Source of the DNA: Oscillospiraceae bacterium
GTDB lineage: Bacteria; Bacillota; Clostridia; Oscillospirales; Oscillospiraceae
Assembly: GCA_902785905.1 (NCBI GenBank)
Contig: CADAAM010000004.1
Span: 1-32,301 of the forward strand
DNA length: 32,301 nucleotides
Direction: 5' to 3'
The notes under the pieces were generated by a model. It saw only the letters and a program-made list of their open reading frames with translations. It was not told the DNA's origin and ran no database searches. Numbering within the stretch: position 1 is the first letter of the stretch; each line of letters begins with the position of its first letter. The position numbers and the translations under genes are program-made. Positions 375 to 30,632 of the stretch are shown one piece after another.

Positions 375-608
375 TTATTCTATTTGCATCTGCTCTTTAT
401 ACGCCAGGCCCCAGCTTTCCATGGATTTGATGATCGGGCGCATGGATTCGCCGAGCTCGGTCAGCGAGTATTCCACACGGGGCGGGACCTCCGGGTAGGC
501 GGTACGGATGACGATGCCGTCCGCCTCCATCGAGCGCAGCGCCTCGGTCAGCGCCTTCTGGCTGATGCCGTCGATACTCTTCTGCAGCTCATTGAAGCGC
601 CAGCTCAT
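375..608 (-). CDS. Short HxlR-type winged-helix regulator, lacking the usual N-terminus
   Basis: The 77 residues match the second half of the HxlR DNA-binding domain: RFNELQKSIDGISQKALTEA (recognition helix), LRSMEADGIV, and the wing signature YPEVPPRVEYSLTELG. HxlR proteins are usually 100-120 residues and begin with a C-x-(V/I)-x-x-T-L-x-x-I-G-G-K-W segment, often with the redox-sensing Cys; that whole segment is absent. An in-frame TGA lies just upstream of the ATG, so the gene cannot extend. Yet it has GGAGG 7 nt before ATG and a strong promoter (TTGCTT-N17-TATAAT), so it looks expressed. It is divergent from the sirtuin operon, the classic layout for autoregulated HxlR genes. Either a functional minimal regulator or a promoter-bearing remnant; family assignment is firm, function is not. 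Confidence 0.8.
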   Translation of the reverse strand: MSWRFNELQKSIDGISQKALTEALRSMEADGIVIRTAYPEVPPRVEYSLTELGESMRPIIKSMESWGLAYKEQMQIE

Positions 609-649: not shown

Positions 650-678
650 ATTATACTGTAATGGCGCGGTAAAAGCAA
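650..678 (-). promoter_or_regulatory. Promoter of the HxlR-type gene
   Basis: On the - strand TTGCTT (678-673) and TATAAT (655-650) are separated by 17 bp, matching the sigma-A consensus closely. Confidence 0.75.
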
Positions 679-680
679 GG

Positions 681-704
681 GCAGTTACAAAAAGGTGCGT
701 ACTT
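681..704. promoter_or_regulatory. Candidate HxlR operator, copy 1 (between divergent promoters)
   Basis: On the - strand this reads AAGTACGCAC-CTTTTT-GTAACTGC. The same architecture recurs at 5254-5277 before the flavin reductase/macrodomain operon. Here it lies directly upstream of the HxlR -35 and overlaps the first two bases of the sirtuin -35 (703-708), so a bound regulator could control both directions. Assignment to HxlR is inference from position and from the known presence of GTAC-containing operators in this family. Confidence 0.55.
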
Positions 705-731
705 GTGCCGATTTCCGACTGCCCTTATACT
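703..731 (+). promoter_or_regulatory. Promoter of the sirtuin operon
   Basis: TTGTGC (703-708) and TATACT (726-731) are 17 bp apart, followed by about 100 nt of untranslated leader before the sirtuin ribosome site. Confidence 0.65.
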
Positions 732-840
732 GTTTACAGCATGGGGCGAAGGGGATCGAACACCTACCGCCTGTGAGCGTCCCTTTTCGGCGCTTTTTGT
801 TCCGCCTCACTTGCTGGGCATAACCCAAGGAGGAAAACCC

Positions 841-1803
841 ATGATATTCAACCGTTCATCCAAAAAGAAAGTGAGCTTTGAGCGCTTTTTAACCTGCGAA
901 TACGCGCGGGACTATATCGATCAGAATACTCCCTATACAGAACAGATTGAAAAGGCCGCGCAGGCGATCCGGGAGGCAGACTATGTGCTGCTCGGCGCGG
1001 GCGCGGGCATGAGCGCCGCGGCAGGAGCCGAGTACGGCGGCAAATACTTTGAGGAACACTTCGCCGAGTTTCAGAAGCTCTACGGCAAAGGGCCGTATAT
1101 GCAAGACATGTACTCCGCGGGCTTTTATCCTTTCCCTGACGAGGAGAGCCGCTGGGGCCTGTGGTCGCATCTGGCGCTGCTGGCCGGCGCGGATCTGGAC
1201 GTGACGCCGCTGCACAAGACGCTGCTGGACGCGCTGGAAGGAAAAAAGCTTTTCCTGCTGAGCACCAACGCCGACCATCAGTTTGAGAAGGCGGGACTGC
1301 CTTCCGTGCAGGTTTTCGCCACCCAGGGCAGCTACAAGCGGATCCAGTGCGCGCGCGGCTGCCACTCCAAGACCTATGACGCGGTGGAGCTGTTCCGGCA
1401 GATGGAGCGGGAGCGCGTCAACGGAAAAATCCCCGGCGAGCTTGTTCCGAAGTGCCCGGTCTGCGGCGGGCCGATGGCGATGAATCTGCGCGTGGACGAT
1501 CATTTCGTACAGGACGAGGACTGGCACGCCGCCGAGGAACGCTTCAGCCGCTTTCTTTCGGAATGCGTCGATCAGAAGACCGTGCTGCTGGAGCTGGGCG
1601 TGGGCTTCAACACCCCGACCATCATCCGCTTCCCCTTTGAAAAACTGGCGCGGGAGCAGGAGAACATCAGCCTGATCCGTCTCAGCCGCAGCAAGGCCGC
1701 CGTGCCCGCAAGCCTGGGTGACCGGGCCATCGGCATCAACGCCGACATGGCGCAGAGCATCACCGATCTTGCCCATAAGCTGAGCGAGTCCCGAAAGGAG
1801 TGA
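841..1803 (+). CDS. Class-M sirtuin (SirTM-type), putative protein ADP-ribosyltransferase
   Basis: A 320-residue sirtuin of the SirTM group. The NAD-binding motif GAGAGMSAAAG is at residues 52-62; STNADHQFEKAG (141-152) replaces the TQNID of ordinary deacetylase sirtuins; ATQGSYKRIQC (160-170) lacks the HG catalytic histidine. N143, D145 and Q162 sit where SirTM enzymes have their catalytic Asn/Asp/Gln. Zinc Cys are C170/C174 and C205/C208. SirTM proteins of staphylococci and streptococci ADP-ribosylate a lipoylated GcvH-like carrier and are encoded with a macrodomain hydrolase. No GcvH-L or lipoate ligase gene is in this window, so the target is open. The start at 841 is chosen because AGGAGG lies at 829-834; an upstream in-frame ATG at 703 would fall inside the promoter. 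The stop overlaps the next gene. Confidence 0.88.
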   Translation: MIFNRSSKKKVSFERFLTCEYARDYIDQNTPYTEQIEKAAQAIREADYVLLGAGAGMSAAAGAEYGGKYFEEHFAEFQKLYGKGPYMQDMYSAGFYPFPDEESRWGLWSHLALLAGADLDVTPLHKTLLDALEGKKLFLLSTNADHQFEKAGLPSVQVFATQGSYKRIQCARGCHSKTYDAVELFRQMERERVNGKIPGELVPKCPVCGGPMAMNLRVDDHFVQDEDWHAAEERFSRFLSECVDQKTVLLELGVGFNTPTIIRFPFEKLAREQENISLIRLSRSKAAVPASLGDRAIGINADMAQSITDLAHKLSESRKE

Positions 1804-2207
1804 CTGAAACGGACCAACTGTTTACGTTTGAACTGGACATGGGAGTCGGAGAAGACCGGCTGACCGTGCAGGCGCTGGAGGACTTGATCTTCAACTGTCT
1901 GGACTTCTGTCTGCTGAACCGGAAGCAGGCGCATTTCTTCCTCACAGGGAAGGACGCCGAGCGGCACCCTGCACTGTGGGAAATGCTGGAGACGCTTCGG
2001 GAAGAGGGCGCGAGCTTCTCCATCCTGAGCGAGCCGGAGCAGTCCGAGTTTCAGGCGCATCGCTCCCGCGCCGCCGGGACAAACACGGAGAAATTGAGTA
2101 TCCGGGTCAACGGAGACGTTTACTGGGGCGCGGCCTTTCTCGGCAGCGCACGGGAGGACCGTCTGGCAGACCTGTGGTACTGCGCGAGATCAGGAGGAAC
2201 AGCATGA
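1800..2207 (+). CDS. Small protein resembling a radical-SAM core fragment without the FeS-cluster loop
   Basis: 135 residues from a GTG whose bases overlap the sirtuin stop (GTGA), with AAGGAG immediately upstream; an in-frame ATG at 1839 is an alternative start. Residues about 22-75 follow the pattern of the half-barrel after a radical-SAM cluster loop: a helix, then HFFLTGKD (where radical-SAM proteins have xxFTGGEP), HPALWEMLETLREEGASFSIL. The end, IRVNGDVYWG...LGSAREDRLADLWY, resembles a SPASM-like tail (gDVyp...lGn...edsl.eiW). The CxxxCxxC motif is absent (only C-LDF-C inside the helix), so it cannot be an ordinary radical-SAM enzyme. It is translationally coupled to both neighbours (ATGA overlap downstream). 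It could be a degenerate paralogue or a partner/scaffold protein. The resemblance is by eye only. Confidence 0.6.
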   Translation: MTETDQLFTFELDMGVGEDRLTVQALEDLIFNCLDFCLLNRKQAHFFLTGKDAERHPALWEMLETLREEGASFSILSEPEQSEFQAHRSRAAGTNTEKLSIRVNGDVYWGAAFLGSAREDRLADLWYCARSGGTA

Positions 2208-3070
2208 CAAACATCGCCGACTTTCAGGCAGAGAAAGAAAAGTGCATCGGCTGCGGTCTGTGCGTCAAGGTTTGCCCCGGCGGCATTTTGCGCCTGAACG
2301 AAGAACGTAAATGCGAGATGGACGAGATCGACCGGTTCGGCTGGCGGGGCTGCTGGAAGTGTGAGCACTGTCTGGCCGTCTGCCCCAAGGGCGTGATCAG
2401 CATCTTCAGCAAGCAGCCGGAGGACAGTCTGCCGCCCGTCAAGGCGGAGAGCGCCGCTCCGGTGCTGGACGCGCTGATCATGAACCGTCATTCCTGCCGC
2501 CGCTTTCTGAAAAAGGACGTGGACGCCTCTGTGATCGACGGTATGCTCCAAACGCTGGGCAACGCCCCTAACGGCGGCAACAAGCAGCAGGTGGAGTTTA
2601 CGCTGATCGACGACCGGGCGCAGATGGAGGCATTTCGCCGTCTCGCCTACGCGGAGATGGATCGCCTGGCCTCGGAGGGCGTCTATCCCGCCGGCTTTGA
2701 CAAAGCCTCCTATGAGGATATGAAGCGCTGGGAAAAGACCGTGCGGCCGGAGATGCTGTTCTGCGGCGCGCCCTATCTGCTGATTCCCCACGCGCCGCTC
2801 GGCAGGGGCGAGCCGGTGGAGGACGTGAACATCGCGGCGGCGTATTTCGAGCTGCTCTGTGCTTCCCGCGGCCTTGGCTGCGTGATGATGAGCTTCCCGA
2901 AAGACGCGCTGCGAAACATGCCGGAGATCGAAGCGCTGCTCCAGATCCCGGAAACCCACTATGTCGGCGTGATGCTGGGCTTCGGCTGGCCGGAGATCCG
3001 CTATGCCAGAGGCACGCAGAGAGGCGTCGGGGAAGAGAGAATCCACCGGCTGCGTTTTACGGAGAAATGA
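2204..3070 (+). CDS. Ferredoxin-type 4Fe-4S / nitroreductase fusion oxidoreductase
   Basis: 288 residues. Two 4Fe-4S motifs lie at the N-terminus: CIGCGLCVKVCP (Cys 14, 17, 20, 24) and CWKCEHCLAVCP (Cys 50, 53, 56, 60). A nitroreductase (FMN) domain follows from about residue 90, opening with NRHSCRRFLKKDVD and carrying NAPNGGNKQQVEF and LGCVMMSFPKDALR. Such fusions take electrons from ferredoxin-like clusters to an FMN site to reduce nitro compounds, quinones or enones in anaerobes. The ATG overlaps the previous stop (ATGA) and has AGGAGG 6 nt upstream, so it is in the sirtuin operon. It may supply redox chemistry tied to the ADP-ribosylation circuit, as flavin enzymes do in known SirTM operons (inference). 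Confidence 0.9.
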   Translation: MTNIADFQAEKEKCIGCGLCVKVCPGGILRLNEERKCEMDEIDRFGWRGCWKCEHCLAVCPKGVISIFSKQPEDSLPPVKAESAAPVLDALIMNRHSCRRFLKKDVDASVIDGMLQTLGNAPNGGNKQQVEFTLIDDRAQMEAFRRLAYAEMDRLASEGVYPAGFDKASYEDMKRWEKTVRPEMLFCGAPYLLIPHAPLGRGEPVEDVNIAAAYFELLCASRGLGCVMMSFPKDALRNMPEIEALLQIPETHYVGVMLGFGWPEIRYARGTQRGVGEERIHRLRFTEK

Positions 3071-3868
3071 GTGATGGCCGCTCTGATCGCCGCCTATTTT
3101 GAGAGCAACGGCAGCCGCTTTGTCGGTATGCTGCTGGCCCATATCTGCGTGAGCCTGATCGCGCTGGCGATCGCCGTGCTGATCGGCGTCCCGGCCGGCT
3201 TTCTCTGCGTCCGGCATCCGCGCTCGCAGAAGTTCATCACCGGGCTTTTCGCCGTCCTGCGCATCATCCCGAGCCTTGCGATCCTGCTGCTGATGGTGCC
3301 GCTGCTGGGCACAGGCACGGCCCCCGCGGTCGTGGCGCTGGTACTGCTGGCCGTGCCGCCGATTTTGATGAACACCGTGGCCGGGCTGGAGGGCGTGCCG
3401 GCATTCATGCTGGAAACGGGAGAGGGCCTCGGCATGACGCCAGGCCAGGTCTGGACGAAGGTGCGTTTCCCGCTGGCCATGCCGATGCTGCTGACGGGAA
3501 TGAAAACCGCCGCGGTGGAGATCGTGTCCAGCGCGACCCTCGCCTCCAAGATCGGGGCGGGCGGCCTGGGCGACCTCATCTTCACGGGGATCGGGCTGTA
3601 TAAAACCGAGCTGCTTTTGATCGGCGGCACGGCGGGCGCGCTGCTGTCGCTGAGCACGGGGCTGCGGATCGCGCTGGTGTCCACGGTGGGTATCGCCACG
3701 ATCGCCGCTTCTATCAACGCGGGGGGTCTGGGTGCGATTCTCTTTGATGGTCTGCGCACGATGAACACCGCCAAGATTCTCTGGGGCAGCCTCCTGTCCG
3801 CGGCGCTGGCCGTCGCCATTGACCGCCTGCTTCTGCTTGTGGAAAGAAAAAGCGAAAACAGTGCGTAA
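3071..3868 (+). CDS. OpuC/ProW-type ABC transporter permease with a repeated C-terminal module
   Basis: 265 residues (GTG at 3071; ATG at 3074 also possible), starting right at the nitroreductase stop. It matches osmoprotectant (glycine betaine/choline) permeases: multiple TM helices, LRIIPSLAILLLMVPLLGTG, the EAA-type coupling loop GEGLGMTPGQVWTKVRFPLAMP (about 117-138), then ATLASKIGAGGLGDLIFTG. Family members normally end soon after this, at about 210 residues. Here a second copy follows: GLRIALVSTVG-IATIAASINAGGLGAILFDGL, offset 54 residues from the first, with no EAA loop of its own. No ATPase or binding-protein gene is adjacent, so it may be an orphan or use a distant ATPase. A terminator follows at once. 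Family call is firm; whether the chimera is functional is unknown. Confidence 0.82.
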   Translation: MMAALIAAYFESNGSRFVGMLLAHICVSLIALAIAVLIGVPAGFLCVRHPRSQKFITGLFAVLRIIPSLAILLLMVPLLGTGTAPAVVALVLLAVPPILMNTVAGLEGVPAFMLETGEGLGMTPGQVWTKVRFPLAMPMLLTGMKTAAVEIVSSATLASKIGAGGLGDLIFTGIGLYKTELLLIGGTAGALLSLSTGLRIALVSTVGIATIAASINAGGLGAILFDGLRTMNTAKILWGSLLSAALAVAIDRLLLLVERKSENSA

Positions 3869-3869
3869 G

Positions 3870-3918
3870 AACGCATAAACCCCATCCGATTTCAACGATC
3901 GGATGGGGTTTATGCGTT
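3870..3918. terminator. Bidirectional terminator between convergent operons
   Basis: A perfect 21-bp stem (3870-3890 with 3898-3918) with a 7-nt loop sits between the permease stop (3868) and the macrodomain stop (3920). A/T-rich stem ends make it usable from both sides. Confidence 0.85.
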
Positions 3919-3919
3919 A

Positions 3920-4705
3920 CTATGCCAAAAGCAGCGACTGATAGATCCTCAGATTCTCGTCTCCGTGAACGCAGAAGACGACCTTCTCGATCCGGCTGTT
4001 TTGCAGGGTTTCCTTCACGGTCGCCACGGCGATCCGGGCGGCCTCGCCCTTGGGGAAACGGAACACGCCCGTGGAGATGCAGCAGAAGGCCACGCTTTTG
4101 AGCCCCTTTTCCTCCGCCAGCGCGAGGCAGGAGCGGTAGCAGGAGGCGAGCAGCTCCCGGTCGCGGTCGCTCAGCGGCCCGTCGATGATCGGGCCGACGG
4201 TGTGCAGCACATGCCTGGCCGGGAGATTGTAGCCCCCGGTGAGCTTGGCCTGTCCAGTCGGCTCTTCGTGGCCCTGGGCACGCATGATCGCGGCACATTC
4301 CTCACGCAGCTGCAGTCCGGCGGCGGAGTGGATCACGTTGTCGATACAGTTGTGCCCCGGCCGGAAGCAGCCCAGGAGCCGGGCGTTGGCCGCGTTCACG
4401 ATGGCGTCCGCGTCCAGCCGCGTGATGTCGCCCTGCCAGAGGACGAGGCGCTCGTCAGAGGGGACGGGCGGGAGCTCCGCCACATGGACGACGCCCTTTT
4501 CCTCCCGCTCCCGGCTCAGCAGCTCATCCTGCGCCTTCAGAAAGCGCTCGGACAGCGCGCCGGGCTCGCGGACGTTCATCAGGCAGCGCAGGAAATAGCG
4601 CTGCTCCTCCGCATTTCGCGGGACGCGCTTTGCCTCCAGGCGGTACTGCGGCATCTCGTCCAGGAGCGTCTCATTCAGAAATTGTATTTGCTCTAATTCT
4701 TTCAT
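3920..4705 (-). CDS. Zinc-type macrodomain protein-ADP-ribose hydrolase
   Basis: 261 residues with a helical N-terminal extension of about 85 residues, then a macrodomain: QGDITRLDADAIVNAAN (91-107), LGCFRPGHNCIDNVIHSAAG (111-130), GYNLPARHVLHTVGP (158-172) and STGVFRFP (211-218). C113, H118 and C120 fit the Cys-His-Cys zinc site of the Zn-macrodomain family, hydrolases that remove ADP-ribose from protein and are typically encoded with SirTM. Finding it 2 kb from a SirTM gene therefore predicts a writer/eraser pair. In classical loci the two genes share one operon; here they sit in convergent operons. The ATG overlaps the flavin reductase stop (ATGA), so those two are co-translated. Confidence 0.9.
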   Translation of the reverse strand: MKELEQIQFLNETLLDEMPQYRLEAKRVPRNAEEQRYFLRCLMNVREPGALSERFLKAQDELLSREREEKGVVHVAELPPVPSDERLVLWQGDITRLDADAIVNAANARLLGCFRPGHNCIDNVIHSAAGLQLREECAAIMRAQGHEEPTGQAKLTGGYNLPARHVLHTVGPIIDGPLSDRDRELLASCYRSCLALAEEKGLKSVAFCCISTGVFRFPKGEAARIAVATVKETLQNSRIEKVVFCVHGDENLRIYQSLLLA

Positions 4706-5202
4706 CTCTCGATCACATCGATGATCTCCCCGATAAACATGGTGTGGGGAGGCATGCGCTTATAGATCCAGTCCGCGACCTCCTGCGGCACCTGTTCTTT
4801 CTCAAACTGGTGAGCGTAGAGCTTTTTGCAGACAAAGCTCAGCTCTGCCTGCTCGAAATCCACACCGTGCTCGACCGCGACCGGCGTGAGCTGCGTCAGC
4901 GCCACCTTGTCCCCGTCCCGGCCGGACTTGCTTCCGAGAACGCTCAGGTCCTGCCGATACTCCCCCGGGAAAAAGCTGACGGTGAAATACTCGTTGGCTT
5001 CCAGAAAGCTGTGCGTATAGCGCGCCGGGGAGACGTAGATTGTCAGGATCGGCCGCCCCTTGTGCGGCGGGCCCCAGATCGTACCCATGCTTCCCCAGGC
5101 GATGGTCATGGTGTTGTAGTTCTCGATCGTTCCCGCCGTAACCAGCGCCCAGCGATCATTGAACATGCGAAACACGTCGTAGCTTTTGTCTTTGAATTCC
5201 AT
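4702..5202 (-). CDS. Flavin reductase-like FMN-binding protein
   Basis: 166 residues of the flavin reductase/FMN-binding split-barrel family: RWALVTAGTIENYNTMTIAWGSMGTIW near the start, then RPILTIYVSPARYTHSFLEANEYFTVSFFP, with HTMFIGEIIDVIE at the end. Relatives in Clostridia bind FMN and pass electrons or reduce flavin; the substrate is not known. It is the first gene of a two-gene operon with the macrodomain hydrolase. The start has AGGGGG 8 nt upstream. Its promoter contains the same operator-like sequence as the sirtuin promoter, so the flavoprotein and hydrolase are probably switched together with the sirtuin operon. Confidence 0.88.
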   Translation of the reverse strand: MEFKDKSYDVFRMFNDRWALVTAGTIENYNTMTIAWGSMGTIWGPPHKGRPILTIYVSPARYTHSFLEANEYFTVSFFPGEYRQDLSVLGSKSGRDGDKVALTQLTPVAVEHGVDFEQAELSFVCKKLYAHQFEKEQVPQEVADWIYKRMPPHTMFIGEIIDVIER

Positions 5203-5226
5203 TGGATCGGCCCCCTATTTCTCCGT

Positions 5227-5255
5227 ATCATACTCGTGATCCGCTCTCCCGTAAA
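5227..5255 (-). promoter_or_regulatory. Promoter of the flavin reductase-macrodomain operon
   Basis: On the - strand TTTACG (5255-5250) and TATGAT (5232-5227) are 17 bp apart. The -35 begins at the end of the GTGCGTAC half of the operator, exactly as at the sirtuin promoter. Confidence 0.55.
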
Positions 5256-5277
5256 GTACGCACAAAAAGGTGAGTGA
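5254..5277. promoter_or_regulatory. Candidate HxlR operator, copy 2
   Basis: Reads AAGTACGCAC-AAAAAG-GTGAGTGA on the + strand, matching the copy at 681-704 in 10 of 10 bases of the first half, in the 6-nt gap length and in the GTRAST core of the second half. The central six bases are the reverse complement of those in copy 1. Confidence 0.55.
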
Positions 5278-10709: not shown

Positions 10710-10724
10710 ATGAAAAATGAGAAG

Positions 10725-10772
10725 CCGGATAAGAGAGCAGGCCAAGATGCCTGCCTGCTTATCCGGTTTTTT
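10725..10772 (+). promoter_or_regulatory. Attenuator-type terminator upstream of the UvrA-like gene
   Basis: CCGGATAAG (10725-10733) pairs with CTTATCCGG (10758-10766), and GCAGGC (10737-10742) with GCCTGC (10749-10754) around a 6-nt loop, followed by T6 (10767-10772). It stands 23 bp before the start codon of the next gene. A short leader frame beginning MKNEKPDKRAGQDACLLIRF starts at 10710 and runs through the hairpin. This is the layout of antibiotic-inducible ribosome-stalling attenuators, although the upstream hairpin alternative was not resolved. Confidence 0.7.
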
Positions 10773-10794
10773 GGAAAACAGGAGATTATTGAAC

Positions 10795-13299
10795 ATGGAC
10801 AGAATCATCACCGACACTATCCCGAAGAAAATTCAGATCCGCGGTGCGAGGGTCCACAATCTGAAGAACATCGATGTCGACGTTCCCTTGAATCAGATCG
10901 TCGGGATCGCGGGCGTGTCCGGTTCGGGGAAATCCTCTCTGGCGCTGGGCGTCCTGTATGCAGAGGGCTCGCGACGCTATCTGGAATCTCTCTCCACCTA
11001 CACGCGCAGGCGCATGACACAGGCCGCGCGCGCCGATGTGGACGACGTGCTGTATGTACCCGCGTCTCTGGCCCTGCACCAGCGGCCCGGCGTACCCGGC
11101 ATCCGCTCCACCTTTGGCACGGGGACGGAGCTGCTCAACAGCCTGCGCCTGATGTTCTCGCGCCTCGCTTCCCACCGCTGCCCCAACGGGCACTATTGCC
11201 CGCCGTCGATGAGCGTCGCGGCGGAGAAGGAGATCGTCTGCCCCGTCTGCGGCGTCTCCTTTTACGGTCCCGGCGCGGAGGAGCTGGCCTTCAACAGTCA
11301 AGGCGCGTGCAAACGCTGCGGCGGCACAGGCACGGTCCGCACCGTGGACGAGCGCACGCTGATCCCGGATGAAACGCTGAGCATCGACGAGGGCGCTGTC
11401 GCCCCCTGGAACAGCCTGATGTGGTCCCTGATGACCGACGTGTGCCGCGCCATGGGCGTCCGCACGGACATTCCCTACCGGGAGCTGACGGACGAAGAAA
11501 AAGAGATCGTCCTCCACGGCCCCATGGTCAAGAAGCATATCTTTTACCGCCCCAGAAAGGCGGACACGGCCACGGCGGGCGAAATGGATTTCACCTATTA
11601 CAGCGCCACGGCCACCGTGCTGAACGCGCTGAACAAGGTCACGGACGAGAAGGGCATGAAGCGGGTGGAGAAGTTCCTCCGGGAAGAGCTCTGTCCCGAC
11701 TGCGGCGGGACACGGCTTTCCGACGCGGCCAGAGCGCCGAAGCTCCGGGGCCTGAGTCTGGATGAGGTCTGCCGCATGCCGCTCAGTGAGCTCTGCGATT
11801 GGGTGCGCGGCGTACCTGCGTCTCTGCCGGAGGAAATGCGCCCCATGGCGGAGAGCATCTGCGCCTCCTTCCATCTGGTCGCCAAGCGGCTGATGGACCT
11901 GGGCCTTTCGTATCTCTCTCTTGACCGGGCGGCGTCCACACTCTCCACGGGCGAGCGACAGCGGATGCAGCTTGCCCGCGCGGTGCGAAACCGCACCACC
12001 GGCGTCCTGTATGTGCTGGACGAGCCCTCGATCGGCCTGCACCCGTCCAATATTGTGGGGCTCACCGGCGTGATGCACGATCTGGTGGCGGACGGAAACT
12101 CCGTCCTGCTGGTGGATCACGACACGCAGATTTTGAAGGAGGCCGACTGGATCATCGAGATGGGGCCGGGGGCCGGGTCATCGGGCGGCCGGGTCATCGC
12201 GGAGGGGACGATCCCCCAGATCGTGCAAAACGCGGCGTCCCGCATCGGGCCGTTTCTCTCCGGGAAAACGGGAGCCCTGCGCCCGCAGACGCCGAAGGAG
12301 GCGCTTTTTGTTCCGGGGACGATCCATCTGTCCACCGGCTCCCTGCACACGGTAAAGCCCCTGGATGTCGACATTCCCAAGGGTCGGCTGACAGTCGTGA
12401 CCGGCGTATCCGGTTCGGGCAAGACGACGCTGATCCTGGAAAGTCTGGTCCCGGCGCTCGAAGCGCTCACCGCAGGAAAAGCGCTCCCCGACCACGTCAA
12501 AGCGGTGACGGCAGAGGGAATCGCGCATGTCAAGCTCATTGACGCCACGCCCATCGGCATCAACATCCGCTCTACAGTGGCCACCTATGCCAATGTGCAC
12601 GACGAGCTGCGCAAGATCTATGCCCGGACGCAGGACGCCAAAGATCGTGGCCGGAAGGCGTCGGCCTTCTCCTACAACACCGGCGAGCTGCGCTGCCCGG
12701 TCTGTGACGGCACGGGCTGTGTGAGCCTTGACGTGCAGTTTTTGCCGGATGTGGATATCCCCTGCCCGGAGTGCCGGGGCTCCCGCTATGCAAAAGAGGC
12801 GTGGCAGATCCGCCACATGAGCAGGAGCGGCGAAGCCCGCTCTCTGCCGGAGCTCATGGCGCTGGACGTGAACACGGCACTCTGCTTCTGTAAGGACATG
12901 AAGCTCGTGCACAGCAGGCTGGAGGTACTGCAGAGTCTCGGCCTCGGCTATCTGACGCTGGGCGAGGAGACGCCCAGTCTCTCCGGCGGCGAGGCGCAGC
13001 GCCTGAAGCTGGCAAGCGAGATGGGACGGCTGCAGACGGATTCCGTGTTTGTGTTTGACGAGCCGACCATCGGCCTGCATCCGCTGGACGTGCAGACGCT
13101 GCTCGGGGTCTTTCAGACCCTGATCGAAAACGGCGCGACTGTCATCGTGATCGAGCACGATCTGGATGTGATCCGCAATGCGGACTACATCATCGACATG
13201 GGGCCGGGCGGCGGCGAGCAGGGCGGCCGGGTTGTCGCCTGCGGCACGCCCGAGGAGATCCAAAACAGCAAAGACAGCATCACCGGACAGTTTCTGTAA
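10795..13299 (+). CDS. UvrA-like ABC ATPase (UvrA2/drug-resistance type)
   Basis: 834 residues, about 100 shorter than UvrA, with two ABC modules. Walker A sites are GVSGSGKSS (40-48) and a second GVSGSGKTT; signatures are LSTGERQRMQLAR in the first half and LSGGEAQRLKLA in the second; Walker B sites are VLDEPSIGLHP and VFDEPTIGLHP. Zinc-finger pairs CPVC, CKRCGG, CPDCGG, CPVCDG and CPECRG are present. The shorter length and LSTGE signature fit the UvrA2 subfamily, which lacks the UvrB-binding region and is linked to drug tolerance rather than excision repair. The start at 10795 has GGAG 10 nt upstream and lies downstream of the attenuator; an in-frame ATG at 10717 would read through the hairpin. 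Induction by a DNA- or ribosome-targeting drug is a reasonable inference. Confidence 0.88.
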   Translation: MDRIITDTIPKKIQIRGARVHNLKNIDVDVPLNQIVGIAGVSGSGKSSLALGVLYAEGSRRYLESLSTYTRRRMTQAARADVDDVLYVPASLALHQRPGVPGIRSTFGTGTELLNSLRLMFSRLASHRCPNGHYCPPSMSVAAEKEIVCPVCGVSFYGPGAEELAFNSQGACKRCGGTGTVRTVDERTLIPDETLSIDEGAVAPWNSLMWSLMTDVCRAMGVRTDIPYRELTDEEKEIVLHGPMVKKHIFYRPRKADTATAGEMDFTYYSATATVLNALNKVTDEKGMKRVEKFLREELCPDCGGTRLSDAARAPKLRGLSLDEVCRMPLSELCDWVRGVPASLPEEMRPMAESICASFHLVAKRLMDLGLSYLSLDRAASTLSTGERQRMQLARAVRNRTTGVLYVLDEPSIGLHPSNIVGLTGVMHDLVADGNSVLLVDHDTQILKEADWIIEMGPGAGSSGGRVIAEGTIPQIVQNAASRIGPFLSGKTGALRPQTPKEALFVPGTIHLSTGSLHTVKPLDVDIPKGRLTVVTGVSGSGKTTLILESLVPALEALTAGKALPDHVKAVTAEGIAHVKLIDATPIGINIRSTVATYANVHDELRKIYARTQDAKDRGRKASAFSYNTGELRCPVCDGTGCVSLDVQFLPDVDIPCPECRGSRYAKEAWQIRHMSRSGEARSLPELMALDVNTALCFCKDMKLVHSRLEVLQSLGLGYLTLGEETPSLSGGEAQRLKLASEMGRLQTDSVFVFDEPTIGLHPLDVQTLLGVFQTLIENGATVIVIEHDLDVIRNADYIIDMGPGGGEQGGRVVACGTPEEIQNSKDSITGQFL

Positions 13300-21354: not shown

Positions 21355-21540
21355 GGGGACACTCGCGCTTATCGCAGCGGGCTTGAGGCCCGCTTTGGTC
21401 GGCGCGAGGCCTCGCGGAGCTCGGCTCAGGGTGTTTTTGCCGAAGCAAAGCTCCGTCAAAAACGGATTTGAATTTGTTTTTCGCCTTCCGAGGCGAAAAA
21501 TCAGAGGCGTTTCCCCTCTGAACTCCCCGCCTGGCGTTTT
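21355..21540. repeat. Hairpin array of unknown nature
   Basis: CTCGCGC (about 21362) pairs with GCGCGAG (about 21401), enclosing GCGGGC-TTGAG-GCCCGC; further on TTTTTCGCC-TTCCGA-GGCGAAAAA (about 21476-21500) and CAGAGG..CCTCTG follow. No gene, promoter or known RNA is recognised. It may be a structured RNA or an eroded mobile element. Confidence 0.4.
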
Positions 21541-26723: not shown

Positions 26724-29700
26724 ATGCTCAAGAGCCATGATAAATTCCACTCCGCCAACGGCAAGTGGCAGATTCTCGTTGCCGATGACGGGCCGCATAA
26801 TCGTGAACTGCTGGAACAGATACTCGGCCGGGACTATGAGCTCCTGTTTTCCGGAAACGGGGAGGAGACGCTGAACATGATCCGCCGTCACCGGGAGACG
26901 CTGTCGTTGGTGCTGCTGGATCTGATGGTGCCCGGCATGAGCGGACTGGAGCTGCTGCGCGTCAAGCGGGACGACCCTGACATTCAGGCAATCCCGACCA
27001 TCGCTGCTGCGTCCGACCGGAAGGCCGAGATGGAGAGTCTCAGCCTTGGGGCCATCGACACCATTGCCAGGCCCTACCCGCCCGCCGACCTTATCCTGGC
27101 CTGTGTGCGCCGTACCATCGAGCTGTGCGAGAATCGCCAGATCATCCGCTTCACGGAGCGCGATGAGCTGACAGGCCTGTATAATCGTGAGTACTTCTGC
27201 CGTTACGCCGAGCAGTACGATCTTCACCACACAGACCTGGACATGGACGCAATCTACCTGGACGTCAACCACTTCCGCATGCTCAACGAGCGCTTCGGCG
27301 CCGCCTGCGGGGACGAGGTACTGCGCCGCATTGCCCGCAATCTGCGGGGTCTCGTCTCAAAGTCCGACGGCATTGTCAGCCGCCGCGAGGCAGACGCCTT
27401 TATGATCTACTGTCCCCACCGCGAGGACTATCGCGAGTTTTTAGAGCGCGCCTCTGCCGACACGAACGTGGGGGAGGGCGTCAAGCGCGTGCATCTGCGC
27501 ATGGGTGTGTACGCGCATGCGGACAAGTCCCTTTCGGTACAGCGCCGCTTCGACCGGGCCAAAAAAGCGGCCGACTCGGTTCGCGGCGGCTATTCCCGCG
27601 CTATCGGTTTTTACGACAGCACCCTGCAGGAAAAGGAGCTCTATCACGCGCAGCTCATCGGGGACTTCCACGGCGCGCTGGGCAGGCATGAATTTGAGGT
27701 CTGGTATCAGCCAAAGTTTGACATCCGCGGAGATGTTCCCGTCCTCGTCAGCGCCGAGGCGCTGGTGCGCTGGAGGCATCCTGCCCACGGCCTTGTCAGC
27801 CCCGGCGAATTTGTCTCCCTCTTTGAGGAAAACGGCCTGATCGAGGAGCTGGACAAATATGTCTGGCGCAAGACGGCGGCGCACCTGCGGGAATGGAAGG
27901 AGCGCTTCGGCTTCTGCGTCCCTGTCTCGGTCAATGTCTCGCGTATCGACATGCTCGATCCCGGCCTCTTTGATACCTTCAAGCGGCTGATGGAGGAATA
28001 TGGCCTCGAGCCGCGCGAATTTCTGCTTGAGATCACGGAGTCGGCCTATACCCTGGACTCCGGCCGTATCGTTGAGACCGTCAACCGTCTGCGCAAGTTC
28101 GGCTTCCAGGTGGAGATGGACGACTTCGGCACGGGCTGCTCCTCTCTGAACATGATTTCAAGTCTCCCTGTCGACGCCCTGAAGCTGGACATGCAGTTTG
28201 TCCGCGGCGCCTTCGACGGGCGGCGCGATACCCGCATGCTGGAGATCATTATTGAGATCGCGGACTCTCTTGCCGTCCCCATTATCGCCGAAGGCGTGGA
28301 GACGGAGGAGCAGCTCAACGCCCTCAAGGCCATGGGCTGCGATCTGGCGCAGGGCTTCTACTTTTCAAAACCCCTCCCCGCTGCGGAGTATGAGCGTTTC
28401 CTGGCCGAGCGCCGGGATCTCCCGGGCAGCACAACCCTGCCCGAGCGCGACGGTAAGTACATAGGCGAGCGCGGCGGCGAGCTCAGCTTCGGCAAGGTCG
28501 CCCATGCCCTCTCCAGCGGCTACGAGAGTATTTACTATGTCGATCTCATCAGCAGCCACTATGTCGAGTTCAGCTCTCAGGGAAAATATGAGGACCTCAA
28601 GATCGAGAGCAGCGGCGCGGATTTCTTCGCCGATACCCGGCGCAACATTCCCCGCGTCGTCTATGAGGAGGACCGTGAGCGCCTCATGGCGGCCATGAGG
28701 AAGGAGACGCTGCTGTCCCATGTCACGGGAACGGAGACCTTCTCCATCCTCTATCGGCTGATGATCGAAGGCAGGCCCCTGTATTACAGCCTCAAGGCGG
28801 TCCGGGCCAGCACCTATGACCGCAACCATCTGGTGGTCGGCATACGCAATGTGGATCAGGAGGTCCGCGACGCCCGACGTATCGGGGAGCATAGCGGCTT
28901 TACCCCGGACTTCACCGGCCTGGCCAAAGCCCTCTCCCGCGATATCGAGAGCGTCTATTACGTCGACGTTTCGACCGGCAATTATCTGAGCTTTTCCTCT
29001 GACGGGGCCTACAGCCTGCTGGAGACAGACAACAGCGGCATAGACTTCTTCAGCGACTGCCAGCGCGACATCCAGAAGGTTGTCTACACCGAGGACTGGG
29101 AGAAGGTTGCCAACGCTCTGGATCGAAAGACCCTGCTTACGGCGCTCGAAACCCGAAAGAGCTTTTCCATGGACTATCGCCTTGTGGTCGGAGGAAAACC
29201 GACCTATTACCGTATGAAGGTCATCCCCGCCGAAACCGGCAGCTTCCGCCATTTCATCGTGGGCGTCAGCAATGTGGACGCCCAGATCGCCGAGGAGCAG
29301 CGCGTCATGGCCGAACGGCAGAATCTTCAGTCGGTCTCCCGCATCGCCCAGGCGCTGGCCCAGGATTACTTCATCATCTACTACGTCGATATCGAAACCG
29401 ATTATTTCATCGAATTCAGCGCGAGCGACAACTTCTCGACCATCGGCATTGAGAAGCGGGGCGAGGATTTCTTCGAGCTCAGCCGCGGCAATATGAAGCG
29501 CTTCGTCCATGAGGATGATCGGCCGCTCTTCCTCGCGCTGTTTACCAAGGAGAACATCCTGCACGCGCTGGAAAAGCACGGCAGCTTCAACCACACCTAC
29601 CGTATGCTCATCGGAGATGAGGTGCAGTATGTGATGATGAAGGTTTCCCGTCTGGACGAACGCCATATCGTCATCGGCACCAGCAATGTCAATGCCGAAG

Positions 29701-30632
29701 TCCGGGAGCGCCTGACTGCCCTTGTCAACTCCGGCGTCGCTCAGGCCTTGTCCTCCGACTACTTCCTCATCTTCTATATCAACACGGAGACCGACCGCTA
29801 CATCGAATACCACACCGACGCTGCGGACGGTGTGATCAACGCGGAGGAGGGCGGCGAGGACTTCTTCGGTGTCAGCCGGGAAAACATCCTCCGCAATGTC
29901 ATTCCCGAGGACCTGGAGCGCATTCAGCCTTTGATGGATAAGGAGACGCTTCTCACCCTGCTCAGCGAATCGGGCAGCTACACCGTCGAATATTGTCTTC
30001 GCATGGACGGTGTGCCCACCTATGTCCACATGAAGGCCAGCCGTATGATGGACCGCAGCGATAAGCACATCGTCATCGGTCTGCGCAATATCGACGCCCG
30101 GGTTCGCCGCGAGCGTGAACAGGCCATGGCCCTGAGGAAGGCGACGGAGCTCGCCTCCCGCGACGCACTCACCGGCGTCAAGAGCAAGGGCGTTTTTGTC
30201 GACGCCGAGCTCCAGTGGGACGAGAGGATACGGACGGAGAGTGATCTTGCCTTCGGCATCGCCATGTTTGACCTCAACGGCCTCAAGGAGGTCAACGATA
30301 CCCAGGGTCACGCGGCGGGCGATATGTATATACGCTCTGCCGGCGCTGCCATCTGTGAGACTTTCAAGCACAGTCCCGTCTATCGCATCGGCGGAGACGA
30401 GTTCGCCGCAACTCTGAGCGGAGCGGACTACGAAAACCGTGAGGCTCTGCTGGAGAGCTTTCTGGCCGGAAACCCCGAGCGGGCAGCTCACGGCAAGGCC
30501 GTGGTGGCCTGCGGTATCGCAGTCTACCGCCCCGGCGAGGACAACCGTTTCCAGGACGTTTTCGAGCGGGCCGACGCTGAAATGTACGAAAACAAGAGAC
30601 AGATCAAAGCGGAATATCCCACCATACGGTGA
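26724..30632 (+). CDS. Multidomain c-di-GMP regulator: REC, degenerate GGDEF, EAL, four PAS-like repeats, GGDEF
   Basis: 1302 residues. REC at about 15-130 keeps the acidic DD and phospho-Asp (LLDLMVPGMSG), but the conserved Lys is Arg (ARPYP). A first GGDEF domain (about 145-300, DELTGLYNRE) has SRREADAF in place of GGDEF and should be inactive. EAL (about 315-560) has AEALVRWRHP, NVSRID, EITES, DDFGTGCSSL, AEGVET and QGFYFSKP, and looks active as a phosphodiesterase. Four related sensor repeats start near 590, 731, 872 and 1003, each opening with a variant of xxAxALSxDYxxIYYVDxxT. The C-terminal GGDEF (about 1146-1295) has YRIGGDEFAA and looks active. It could make or break c-di-GMP according to its input. 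No TM helix. GGAGAG lies upstream of the ATG. Confidence 0.92.
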   Translation: MLKSHDKFHSANGKWQILVADDGPHNRELLEQILGRDYELLFSGNGEETLNMIRRHRETLSLVLLDLMVPGMSGLELLRVKRDDPDIQAIPTIAAASDRKAEMESLSLGAIDTIARPYPPADLILACVRRTIELCENRQIIRFTERDELTGLYNREYFCRYAEQYDLHHTDLDMDAIYLDVNHFRMLNERFGAACGDEVLRRIARNLRGLVSKSDGIVSRREADAFMIYCPHREDYREFLERASADTNVGEGVKRVHLRMGVYAHADKSLSVQRRFDRAKKAADSVRGGYSRAIGFYDSTLQEKELYHAQLIGDFHGALGRHEFEVWYQPKFDIRGDVPVLVSAEALVRWRHPAHGLVSPGEFVSLFEENGLIEELDKYVWRKTAAHLREWKERFGFCVPVSVNVSRIDMLDPGLFDTFKRLMEEYGLEPREFLLEITESAYTLDSGRIVETVNRLRKFGFQVEMDDFGTGCSSLNMISSLPVDALKLDMQFVRGAFDGRRDTRMLEIIIEIADSLAVPIIAEGVETEEQLNALKAMGCDLAQGFYFSKPLPAAEYERFLAERRDLPGSTTLPERDGKYIGERGGELSFGKVAHALSSGYESIYYVDLISSHYVEFSSQGKYEDLKIESSGADFFADTRRNIPRVVYEEDRERLMAAMRKETLLSHVTGTETFSILYRLMIEGRPLYYSLKAVRASTYDRNHLVVGIRNVDQEVRDARRIGEHSGFTPDFTGLAKALSRDIESVYYVDVSTGNYLSFSSDGAYSLLETDNSGIDFFSDCQRDIQKVVYTEDWEKVANALDRKTLLTALETRKSFSMDYRLVVGGKPTYYRMKVIPAETGSFRHFIVGVSNVDAQIAEEQRVMAERQNLQSVSRIAQALAQDYFIIYYVDIETDYFIEFSASDNFSTIGIEKRGEDFFELSRGNMKRFVHEDDRPLFLALFTKENILHALEKHGSFNHTYRMLIGDEVQYVMMKVSRLDERHIVIGTSNVNAEVRERLTALVNSGVAQALSSDYFLIFYINTETDRYIEYHTDAADGVINAEEGGEDFFGVSRENILRNVIPEDLERIQPLMDKETLLTLLSESGSYTVEYCLRMDGVPTYVHMKASRMMDRSDKHIVIGLRNIDARVRREREQAMALRKATELASRDALTGVKSKGVFVDAELQWDERIRTESDLAFGIAMFDLNGLKEVNDTQGHAAGDMYIRSAGAAICETFKHSPVYRIGGDEFAATLSGADYENREALLESFLAGNPERAAHGKAVVACGIAVYRPGEDNRFQDVFERADAEMYENKRQIKAEYPTIR

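Follow-up and report, generated by a model that had tools for sequence, protein, structure and literature searches.

The present analysis concerns a stretch of 32,301 nt, here called the window, which is the whole of one contig (C4; GenBank CADAAM010000004.1) in a 2.73-Mb draft genome of an Oscillospiraceae bacterium (191 contigs, 84.8% complete). It encodes a class M sirtuin (SirTM) and a zinc macrodomain protein (Zn-Macro) in two convergent operons, and the promoters of both carry copies of one operator type, AAGTACGCAC-N6-GT.., that abut their -35 boxes. Gene identities, conservation of the operator in related genomes, its geometry relative to the promoter and its co-location with genes for HxlR-type regulators could all be established computationally. 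They favour an ADP-ribosylation module organized as a multi-operon regulon, in which an HxlR protein would bind the operators and act as an activator (probability about 0.7).

The SirTM and Zn-Macro Pair

The SirTM gene (P0001) occupies positions 841–1803 on the forward strand. The best PDB match of its product is 5a3a ('SIR2 FAMILY PROTEIN'; E = 2.8e-50, residues 34–308), which we take to be the SirTM of Streptococcus pyogenes, and the sirtuin HG is replaced by QG, with FATQGSY aligned to FHIQGEY of 5a3a. Replacement of the catalytic HG motif by QG is a feature of SirTM (PMC4518038, available in part). The Zn-Macro gene (P0005; 3920–4705, reverse strand) lies 2.1 kb downstream and is convergent to the first. 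Its product scores 332.4 bits against NCBIfam PRK04143 (cut-off 272), matches SauMacro (PDB 5kiv) with E = 3.6e-66, and carries an eight-residue zinc loop, C-FRPG-H-N-C (CX4HXC), that aligns to CMQANHDC of SauMacro; eight residues is also the length of the zinc motif described for Zn-Macro proteins in the available part of PMC11490716. The sequence-only reading had proposed a SirTM writer and a zinc-type macrodomain eraser in convergent operons, each with a flavin-type redox enzyme, and this is borne out, the partner enzymes being a ferredoxin-nitroreductase fusion and a flavin reductase-like protein. The two proteins probably add and remove a protein tag derived from nicotinamide adenine dinucleotide (NAD), i.e., ADP-ribosylation.

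For comparison, 42 SirTM loci of relatives were found in 84,980 genomes using the single protein P0001 as query (loci and genomes are cited below by working numbers, L and G). Genes in these loci were labelled by BLAST against a small query set, so that a missing label is weak evidence. A macrodomain gene lies within -4/+5.5 kb of SirTM in 26 of the 42. The closest named relative among them is the metagenome-assembled genome (MAG) RUG10684, 'Ruminococcaceae bacterium' (L172), with a SirTM 92% identical to that of the window. Its RUG prefix presumably denotes rumen MAGs, and the record titles of other relatives name rumen, omasum, abomasum and reticulum. In L035, a DUF1848 protein (PF08902; L035:7957-8889) is encoded between SirTM and Zn-Macro, and DUF1848 beside SirTM recurs in several loci.

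A Shared Operator at Both Promoters

A pattern scan places operator copy 1, AAGTACGCAC-CTTTTT-GTAACTG, at 682–704 on the reverse strand, and copy 2, AAGTACGCAC-AAAAAG-GTGAGTG, at 5254–5276 on the forward strand; the first is kept in syntenic loci and the second in some relatives. The promoter of the SirTM operon (703–731, forward strand) reads TTGTGC (703–708), a 17-bp spacer and TATACT (726–731), and that of the flavin reductase/Zn-Macro operon (5227–5255, reverse strand) reads TTTACG (5255–5250), again 17 bp, and TATGAT (5232–5227), a layout shared with L174, L175, L186 and L208. In both, the last TT of the operator is also the beginning of the -35 box, so the promoter reading proposed earlier for the two operons can be confirmed directly. 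On the other side of copy 1 is the promoter of a divergent HxlR gene (650–678, reverse strand), TTGCTT (678–673) and TATAAT (655–650) spaced by 17 bp, with the same boxes in L172; the operator stops 3 bp short of its -35. The pattern AAGTACGCAC-N6-GTRASTG, which had been reported from both promoters, has exactly these two matches in the window, compared to none in 100 dinucleotide shuffles, and exactly two in the whole 2.73-Mb draft, where the reversed pattern has none. Since the pattern was derived from the two window copies, its conservation elsewhere is the real test of the operator.

Conservation in Related Genomes

The sequence-only reading had made its regulon depend on conservation of the operator in syntenic loci, and such conservation was found in many of them: the exact decamer occurs within -4/+5.5 kb of SirTM in 24 of the 42 loci, whereas 1000 shuffled decamers averaged 0.5 loci. 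The largest count for a shuffled decamer, 15 loci, possibly reflects a register-shifted copy of the operator. Among the 25 genus-type loci (L172–L192, L208, L209, L212 and L213), SirTM is preceded in 15 by an operator with at most one mismatch together with a properly spaced -10 box. A sixteenth (L173) was seen in the analysis of promoter copies and lies outside this count because the start assigned to its open reading frame (ORF) is far upstream. The operator also precedes the convergent flavin reductase or Zn-Macro gene in L175, L186 and L208 (exact decamer) and L174 (one mismatch), and the same layout stands before the gene for P0002, a small protein described below, in two genus-type loci (L173 and L213). 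Ten of the 19 first-fetched SirTM loci (L035–L053) have a promoter site with at most one mismatch; in two of the genomes (G109 and G264; L035 and L036) the operator precedes a SirTM-DUF1848-ZnMacro array, with no HxlR gene labelled beside it. As a separate observation, positions 21366–21472 of the window are 76% identical to DNA just upstream of the L172 SirTM, perhaps a dispersed intergenic repeat.

The geometry seen in the window is general. Among 94 copies of GTGCGTACTT from 121 loci and the window, which are distinct over 50 nt and phylogenetically not independent, 85 have TAnnnT 16 or 17 bp after a -35 box beginning at the last TT, and at 14 other offset pairs the same motif was found in only 0–8 of the 94. 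The -35 boxes match TTGACA at 2, 3, 4, 5 and 6 positions in 5, 43, 32, 13 and 1 copies, respectively, so that 80 of 94 match at four positions or fewer. At the N6 spacing, the second half-site has AC in 82 of 94 copies, a count that is partly due to selection, as GTG at this place was a condition in fetching 60 of the 121 loci. Because the site is fixed just upstream of poor -35 boxes, the arrangement suggests that an HxlR-type regulator acts as an activator at these promoters.

A wider view came from a sample of 300 genomes of the family, in which AAGTACGCAC-N6-GTG has 70 sites in 52 genomes, against three matches to the reversed pattern. With the window included, and once duplicates of identical stretches and L144 (which coincides with L045) had been removed, 69 distinct sites remained; the row for L175 was left out of their alignment (wrong start anchor), and its operator was taken from the locus comparisons instead. 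An HxlR gene starts within 330 bp downstream of 47 of the 69. HxlR, SirTM or Zn-Macro was labelled within 4.5 kb of 61 sites, SirTM or Zn-Macro near 20, and neither kind near 8. Operator and SirTM also co-occur, with SirTM in 36 of the 52 operator genomes and in 75 of the 248 others, although the Fisher tests applied to this and to the TIGR04340/SirTM comparison below ignore relatedness.

HxlR Genes and the Wider Use of the Operator

The HxlR/DUF24-type ORF beside copy 1 (375–608, reverse strand) encodes 77 aa, covers positions 20–89 of the 91 of PF01638 (85.6 bits) and is truncated at its N-terminus. The earlier statement that copy 1 lies next to a divergent HxlR-type gene is therefore accurate as to place, since the operator adjoins the HxlR promoter, but the gene in this contig is incomplete. 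Full-length PF01638 winged helices are encoded in L172 and other relatives, and their cysteine context is mostly (E/D)CPV, with ECTV in L210 and L211 and TCPL in the distant L206 and L207.

The family sites fall into three flavours. Flavour A (mostly AATATT-like spacers) accompanies SirTM, Zn-Macro, ferredoxin-PPOX and NmrA-like genes in many cases. Flavour B (mostly AT-rich spacers, e.g., ATAAAA) goes with HxlR relatives of the C137 protein of the window's own genome, and the cases read adjoin what we judged by reading to be FMN-reductase-like genes. Flavour C (AAAAAG ... GTACGCACCTTTTTGTAACTG and close variants; L091, L092, L093, L122 and L138) accompanies the HxlR clade nearest to that of the window, and both window sites resemble the two halves of this tandem operator. 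The idea that the operator is exclusive to SirTM regulation was rejected, given the flavour B sites with other HxlR clades. Thus, of the shared operator and regulon first proposed from the window, the part that stands is that one conserved operator type serves both operons and accompanies HxlR genes; the adjoining HxlR is truncated and the decamer is not specific to SirTM. Sharing of the operator is well supported by the sequence comparisons, and the site is absent in some relatives.

Proposed Regulon and Alternative Explanations

The regulator of the proposed regulon would be an HxlR/DUF24 dimer, encoded next to the SirTM operon, that binds the sites abutting each -35 box, and an electrophile or oxidant reacting with its N-terminal cysteine would lead to the operons being switched on. 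The operons concerned would be that of SirTM, P0002 and the ferredoxin-nitroreductase, that of the flavin reductase and Zn-Macro, and, in some relatives, a third comprising P0002, a nitroreductase and a betaine-type ATP-binding cassette (ABC) transporter. The mark set by SirTM and taken off by Zn-Macro would be on a redox protein acting together with the flavoenzymes encoded nearby. DNA binding, activation, the signal and the target are what we infer beyond the observed arrangement. Redox or electrophile sensing by HxlR is plausible by analogy with its family and from the partner enzymes: HypR, YodB and CatR sense oxidants and electrophiles through N-terminal cysteines, and their regulons include flavin or nitro reductases (PMC6943732, available in part). 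In Bacillus subtilis HxlR, both DNA binding and transcription increase when formaldehyde acts on Cys11, and crosslinking by formaldehyde needs a lysine two residues after the cysteine (PMC7835342, available in part). The HxlR_b proteins listed for relatives lack this lysine, and a formaldehyde signal through the Cys11-Lys13 mechanism is disfavoured.

A number of observations weigh against this proposal. No exact decamer was found near SirTM in 18 of the 42 loci, an HxlR-labelled gene is near SirTM in only 22 of 42, nine of the 19 first-fetched loci have no promoter site (one of these, L044, starts at a contig end), and among the nine loci with a convergent Zn-Macro (L172, L174, L175, L183, L184, L186, L187, L190 and L208) five show no operator at its promoter (L172, L183, L184, L187 and L190). 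The decamer is also used by HxlR clades with no SirTM nearby, and the HxlR of the window lacks the N-terminal helix and, in all, about 34 residues present in the L172 orthologue, including CPVATT with the sensor cysteine. As to the direction of control, contact of the operator with the -35 box fits repression equally well, and the available text of PMC6943732 terms HypR a repressor in one place and describes it as activated in another, so that the HxlR family does not settle the matter.

The same operator and regulator could then work by repression, in the manner of YodB or CatR, with HxlR blocking the -35 box until released by electrophiles. The first two bases of the -35 belong to the operator as well, many family loci have the site close before the HxlR start codon, as in autorepression, and thiol stress inactivates YodB and CatR and induces their regulons (PMC6943732, in the part available). 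The bulk of the operator, however, is found at a constant distance ahead of the -35, and the poor quality of 80 of the 94 boxes suits an activator, which leaves repression a rather unlikely mode of control. The rigid spacing of decamer and promoter (85 of 94), together with the occurrence of the site with several HxlR clades, could also mean that the decamer belongs to an extended -35 element read by an alternative sigma factor or another regulator, with HxlR genes as one of many targets. This we consider very unlikely, given that 47 of 69 sites stand just before an HxlR gene and that a second half recurs at N6 spacing, subject to the selection mentioned above. It is similarly improbable that the operators control the flavoenzymes only, with SirTM and Zn-Macro as passengers in oxidoreductase operons. 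Several flavour B sites do accompany FMN-reductase-like genes while lacking a SirTM in the vicinity, yet in 15 of the 25 genus-type loci (not counting L173) SirTM comes first among the labelled genes that follow the operator; these include three (L180, L182 and L187) with no flavoenzyme of the query set nearby, and SirTM is more frequent in operator genomes than in others, as given above.

A different kind of explanation is that the system is decaying in this genome, with HxlR truncated, the transporter collapsed, the operators orphaned and SirTM and Zn-Macro left uncontrolled. Besides the missing part of HxlR, the transporter lacks the binding protein and ATPase found in L172; neither P0002 nor a flavin reductase was seen in L172 itself. 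Set against this, both operators and both enzymes are intact, and the shared part of HxlR is 95.9% identical to that of L172 at the DNA level over 219 bp (leader, ribosome site and shared coding parts each 95–96%), with proportions of nonsynonymous and synonymous differences (pN and pS) of 0.00 and 0.19 in the shared codons. As there is no nonsynonymous change at this pS, the HxlR loss is either very recent or an assembly artefact, and decay of the whole system seems rather unlikely. The regulon under an HxlR activator is preferred for the lineage; in the present genome the truncation of HxlR may have abolished its control, except if the gap arose recently or through misassembly.

Possible Targets of ADP-Ribosylation

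No match to GcvH (PF01597) or to the LplA/B catalytic domain (PF21948) was found in the 84.8% complete draft; Biotin_lipoyl has two matches, one of them strong. The absence of GcvH-L and lipoate ligase genes noted earlier for the window thus extends to the draft but is not unusual, because lone SirTM/Zn-Macro pairs have been described (PMC4518038 and PMC11490716, in the parts available). GcvH-L is unlikely to be the target of the window pair.

Some related Oscillospiraceae and Lachnospiraceae offer another candidate, for in these the operator heads an array of genes for a cysteine-repeat (ACGX) peptide, a radical S-adenosylmethionine (SAM) enzyme, flavoenzymes, Zn-Macro and SirTM. In Frisingicoccus caecimuris (L204:6223-10933) the order is HxlR, operator, ACGX peptide, radical SAM, nitroreductase, ferredoxin-PPOX, Zn-Macro and SirTM; the peptide has the ACGX repeats and the radical SAM protein scores 582 bits against NCBIfam TIGR04340, over the cut-off. 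A radical SAM gene of this ACGX type is present in five of the 42 SirTM loci. Of the 300 family genomes, 24 have a TIGR04340 protein over the cut-off, and SirTM is found in 22 of these (all except G117 and G195) versus 89 of the other 276. As judged by eye, both genes are on one contig and no more than about 3 kb apart in nine of the 24 (G045, G077, G089, G157, G194, G207, G231, G236 and G284), and on different contigs in the other 13 that have both. A scan for ACGX repeats listed no such peptide in the window.

By analogy, the ACGX peptide may replace lipoyl-GcvH-L as the SirTM target and is the best candidate in those loci, while in the lineage of the window P0002 or one of the flavoenzymes would be the most attractive target. 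It could be speculated further that, in gut and rumen Clostridia, SirTM and Zn-Macro reversibly ADP-ribosylate a second class of target, a thiol carrier that stands in for lipoyl-GcvH-L, namely the ACGX peptide after processing by its radical SAM enzyme, with an electrophile-sensing HxlR activator switching the set and, in the lineage of the window, P0002 as a reduced, non-catalytic radical SAM partner, but as a whole this remains an unlikely proposition. Among the matches listed (most subscription papers being out of reach), a literature search found no publication on an ACGX radical SAM peptide system and no report of the present regulon or of an ACGX-SirTM link.

Comparison with Known Systems

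The nearest known system is the extended SirTM operon of Staphylococcus aureus and S. pyogenes (GcvH-L, Macro, SirTM, LplA2, OYE and LLM), which has the same writer, a Zn-Macro eraser, flavin oxidoreductases and a proposed redox role (PMC4518038 and PMC11490716, both available in part). In contrast to it, no GcvH or LplA was found in the present draft, the flavoenzymes are different (ferredoxin-nitroreductase and flavin reductase, with ferredoxin-PPOX in relatives), there is an HxlR operator, and some relatives add an ACGX peptide and a radical SAM enzyme. According to the available part of PMC4518038, bacterial SirTM and macrodomain genes are adjacent in one operon, whereas here writer and eraser are in separate, convergent operons. 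Lone pairs in Enterococcus faecalis and Treponema pedis likewise occur without GcvH-L and LplA, their target being unknown (PMC11490716), and in the available parts of PMC11490716 and PMC4518038 neither HxlR control nor a shared operator nor an ACGX peptide is mentioned for such pairs. A further comparison is with HxlR, HypR, YodB and CatR of B. subtilis, which belong to the same fold family and share the N-terminal cysteine (present here in the proteins of relatives) and a regulon with flavin or nitro reductases, but here the regulon would include an ADP-ribosylation pair. The module is a form of the known SirTM/Zn-Macro system in a different genetic context, with a regulon that is likely controlled by HxlR.

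The available part of PMC11490716 calls elusive both the targets and the physiological role of SirTM/Zn-Macro pairs that are not in the lipoyl operon. For pairs of this kind in commensal Clostridia, among them the cultured F. caecimuris DSM 28559, the present comparisons provide a conserved operator and a candidate regulator, and the ACGX peptide, which shares a gene array with the pair in some genomes, is a concrete candidate target. If correct, NAD-dependent protein marking would be tied to thiol or electrophile sensing and to a radical SAM peptide system. A second isolate with a similar set is Faecalicatena contorta ET52, in which SirTM is split into two ORFs (L205:9980-10950), as it is in L210, L211 and L212.

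Accompanying Genes

P0002 (1800–2207, forward strand; about 135 aa) resembles a gutted radical SAM enzyme without the CxxxCxxC motif. Its residues 20–102 match positions 32–115, in the N-terminal part, of TIGR04340 (E = 8.8e-12; 44.9 bits, cut-off 400) with the cluster cysteines absent, and the window has only this protein where some relatives' SirTM loci encode an ACGX radical SAM/SPASM protein over the TIGR04340 cut-off. The gene is labelled in seven of the 42 SirTM loci; six of the homologues align lengthwise with 48–56% identity (L177 from an internal start), and that of L208 matches residues 2–68 only. Nonsynonymous rates are below synonymous rates (dN < dS) in 19 of 21 pairs, these being the 19 where dS could be corrected, and with homologues in seven loci the view that P0002 is a decay remnant peculiar to this genome was rejected. 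The structural model is fairly confident (predicted local distance difference test, pLDDT, 82), and no function is claimed for P0002 because no PDB fold matched the model with E ≤ 0.001.

The ferredoxin-nitroreductase fusion (P0003; 2204–3070, forward strand) has PF00881 and Fer4 domains and a 70% identical orthologue in L037. It is followed by a ProW/OpuC-like ABC permease (3074–3868, forward strand) that, in comparison with L172, is a chimera of permeases 1 and 2 of relatives, and all four genes of the OpuC-like cassette are present in L037, L172, L173 and L185. The two L172 matches overlap at 3648–3679 inside the permease, which looks like a deletion between homologous permeases or an assembly collapse. 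In the convergent operon, the flavin reductase-like protein (P0006; 4702–5202, reverse strand; PF01613, 38.5 bits) is 81–88% identical to its matches in L174, L175, L190 and L208. Elsewhere in the window, and judged by reading only, an ORF of 860 aa at 10717–13299 is like a UvrA-type ATPase paralogue, and one of 1302 aa at 26724–30632 is response-regulator/GGDEF/EAL-like, with repeated sensor-like segments.

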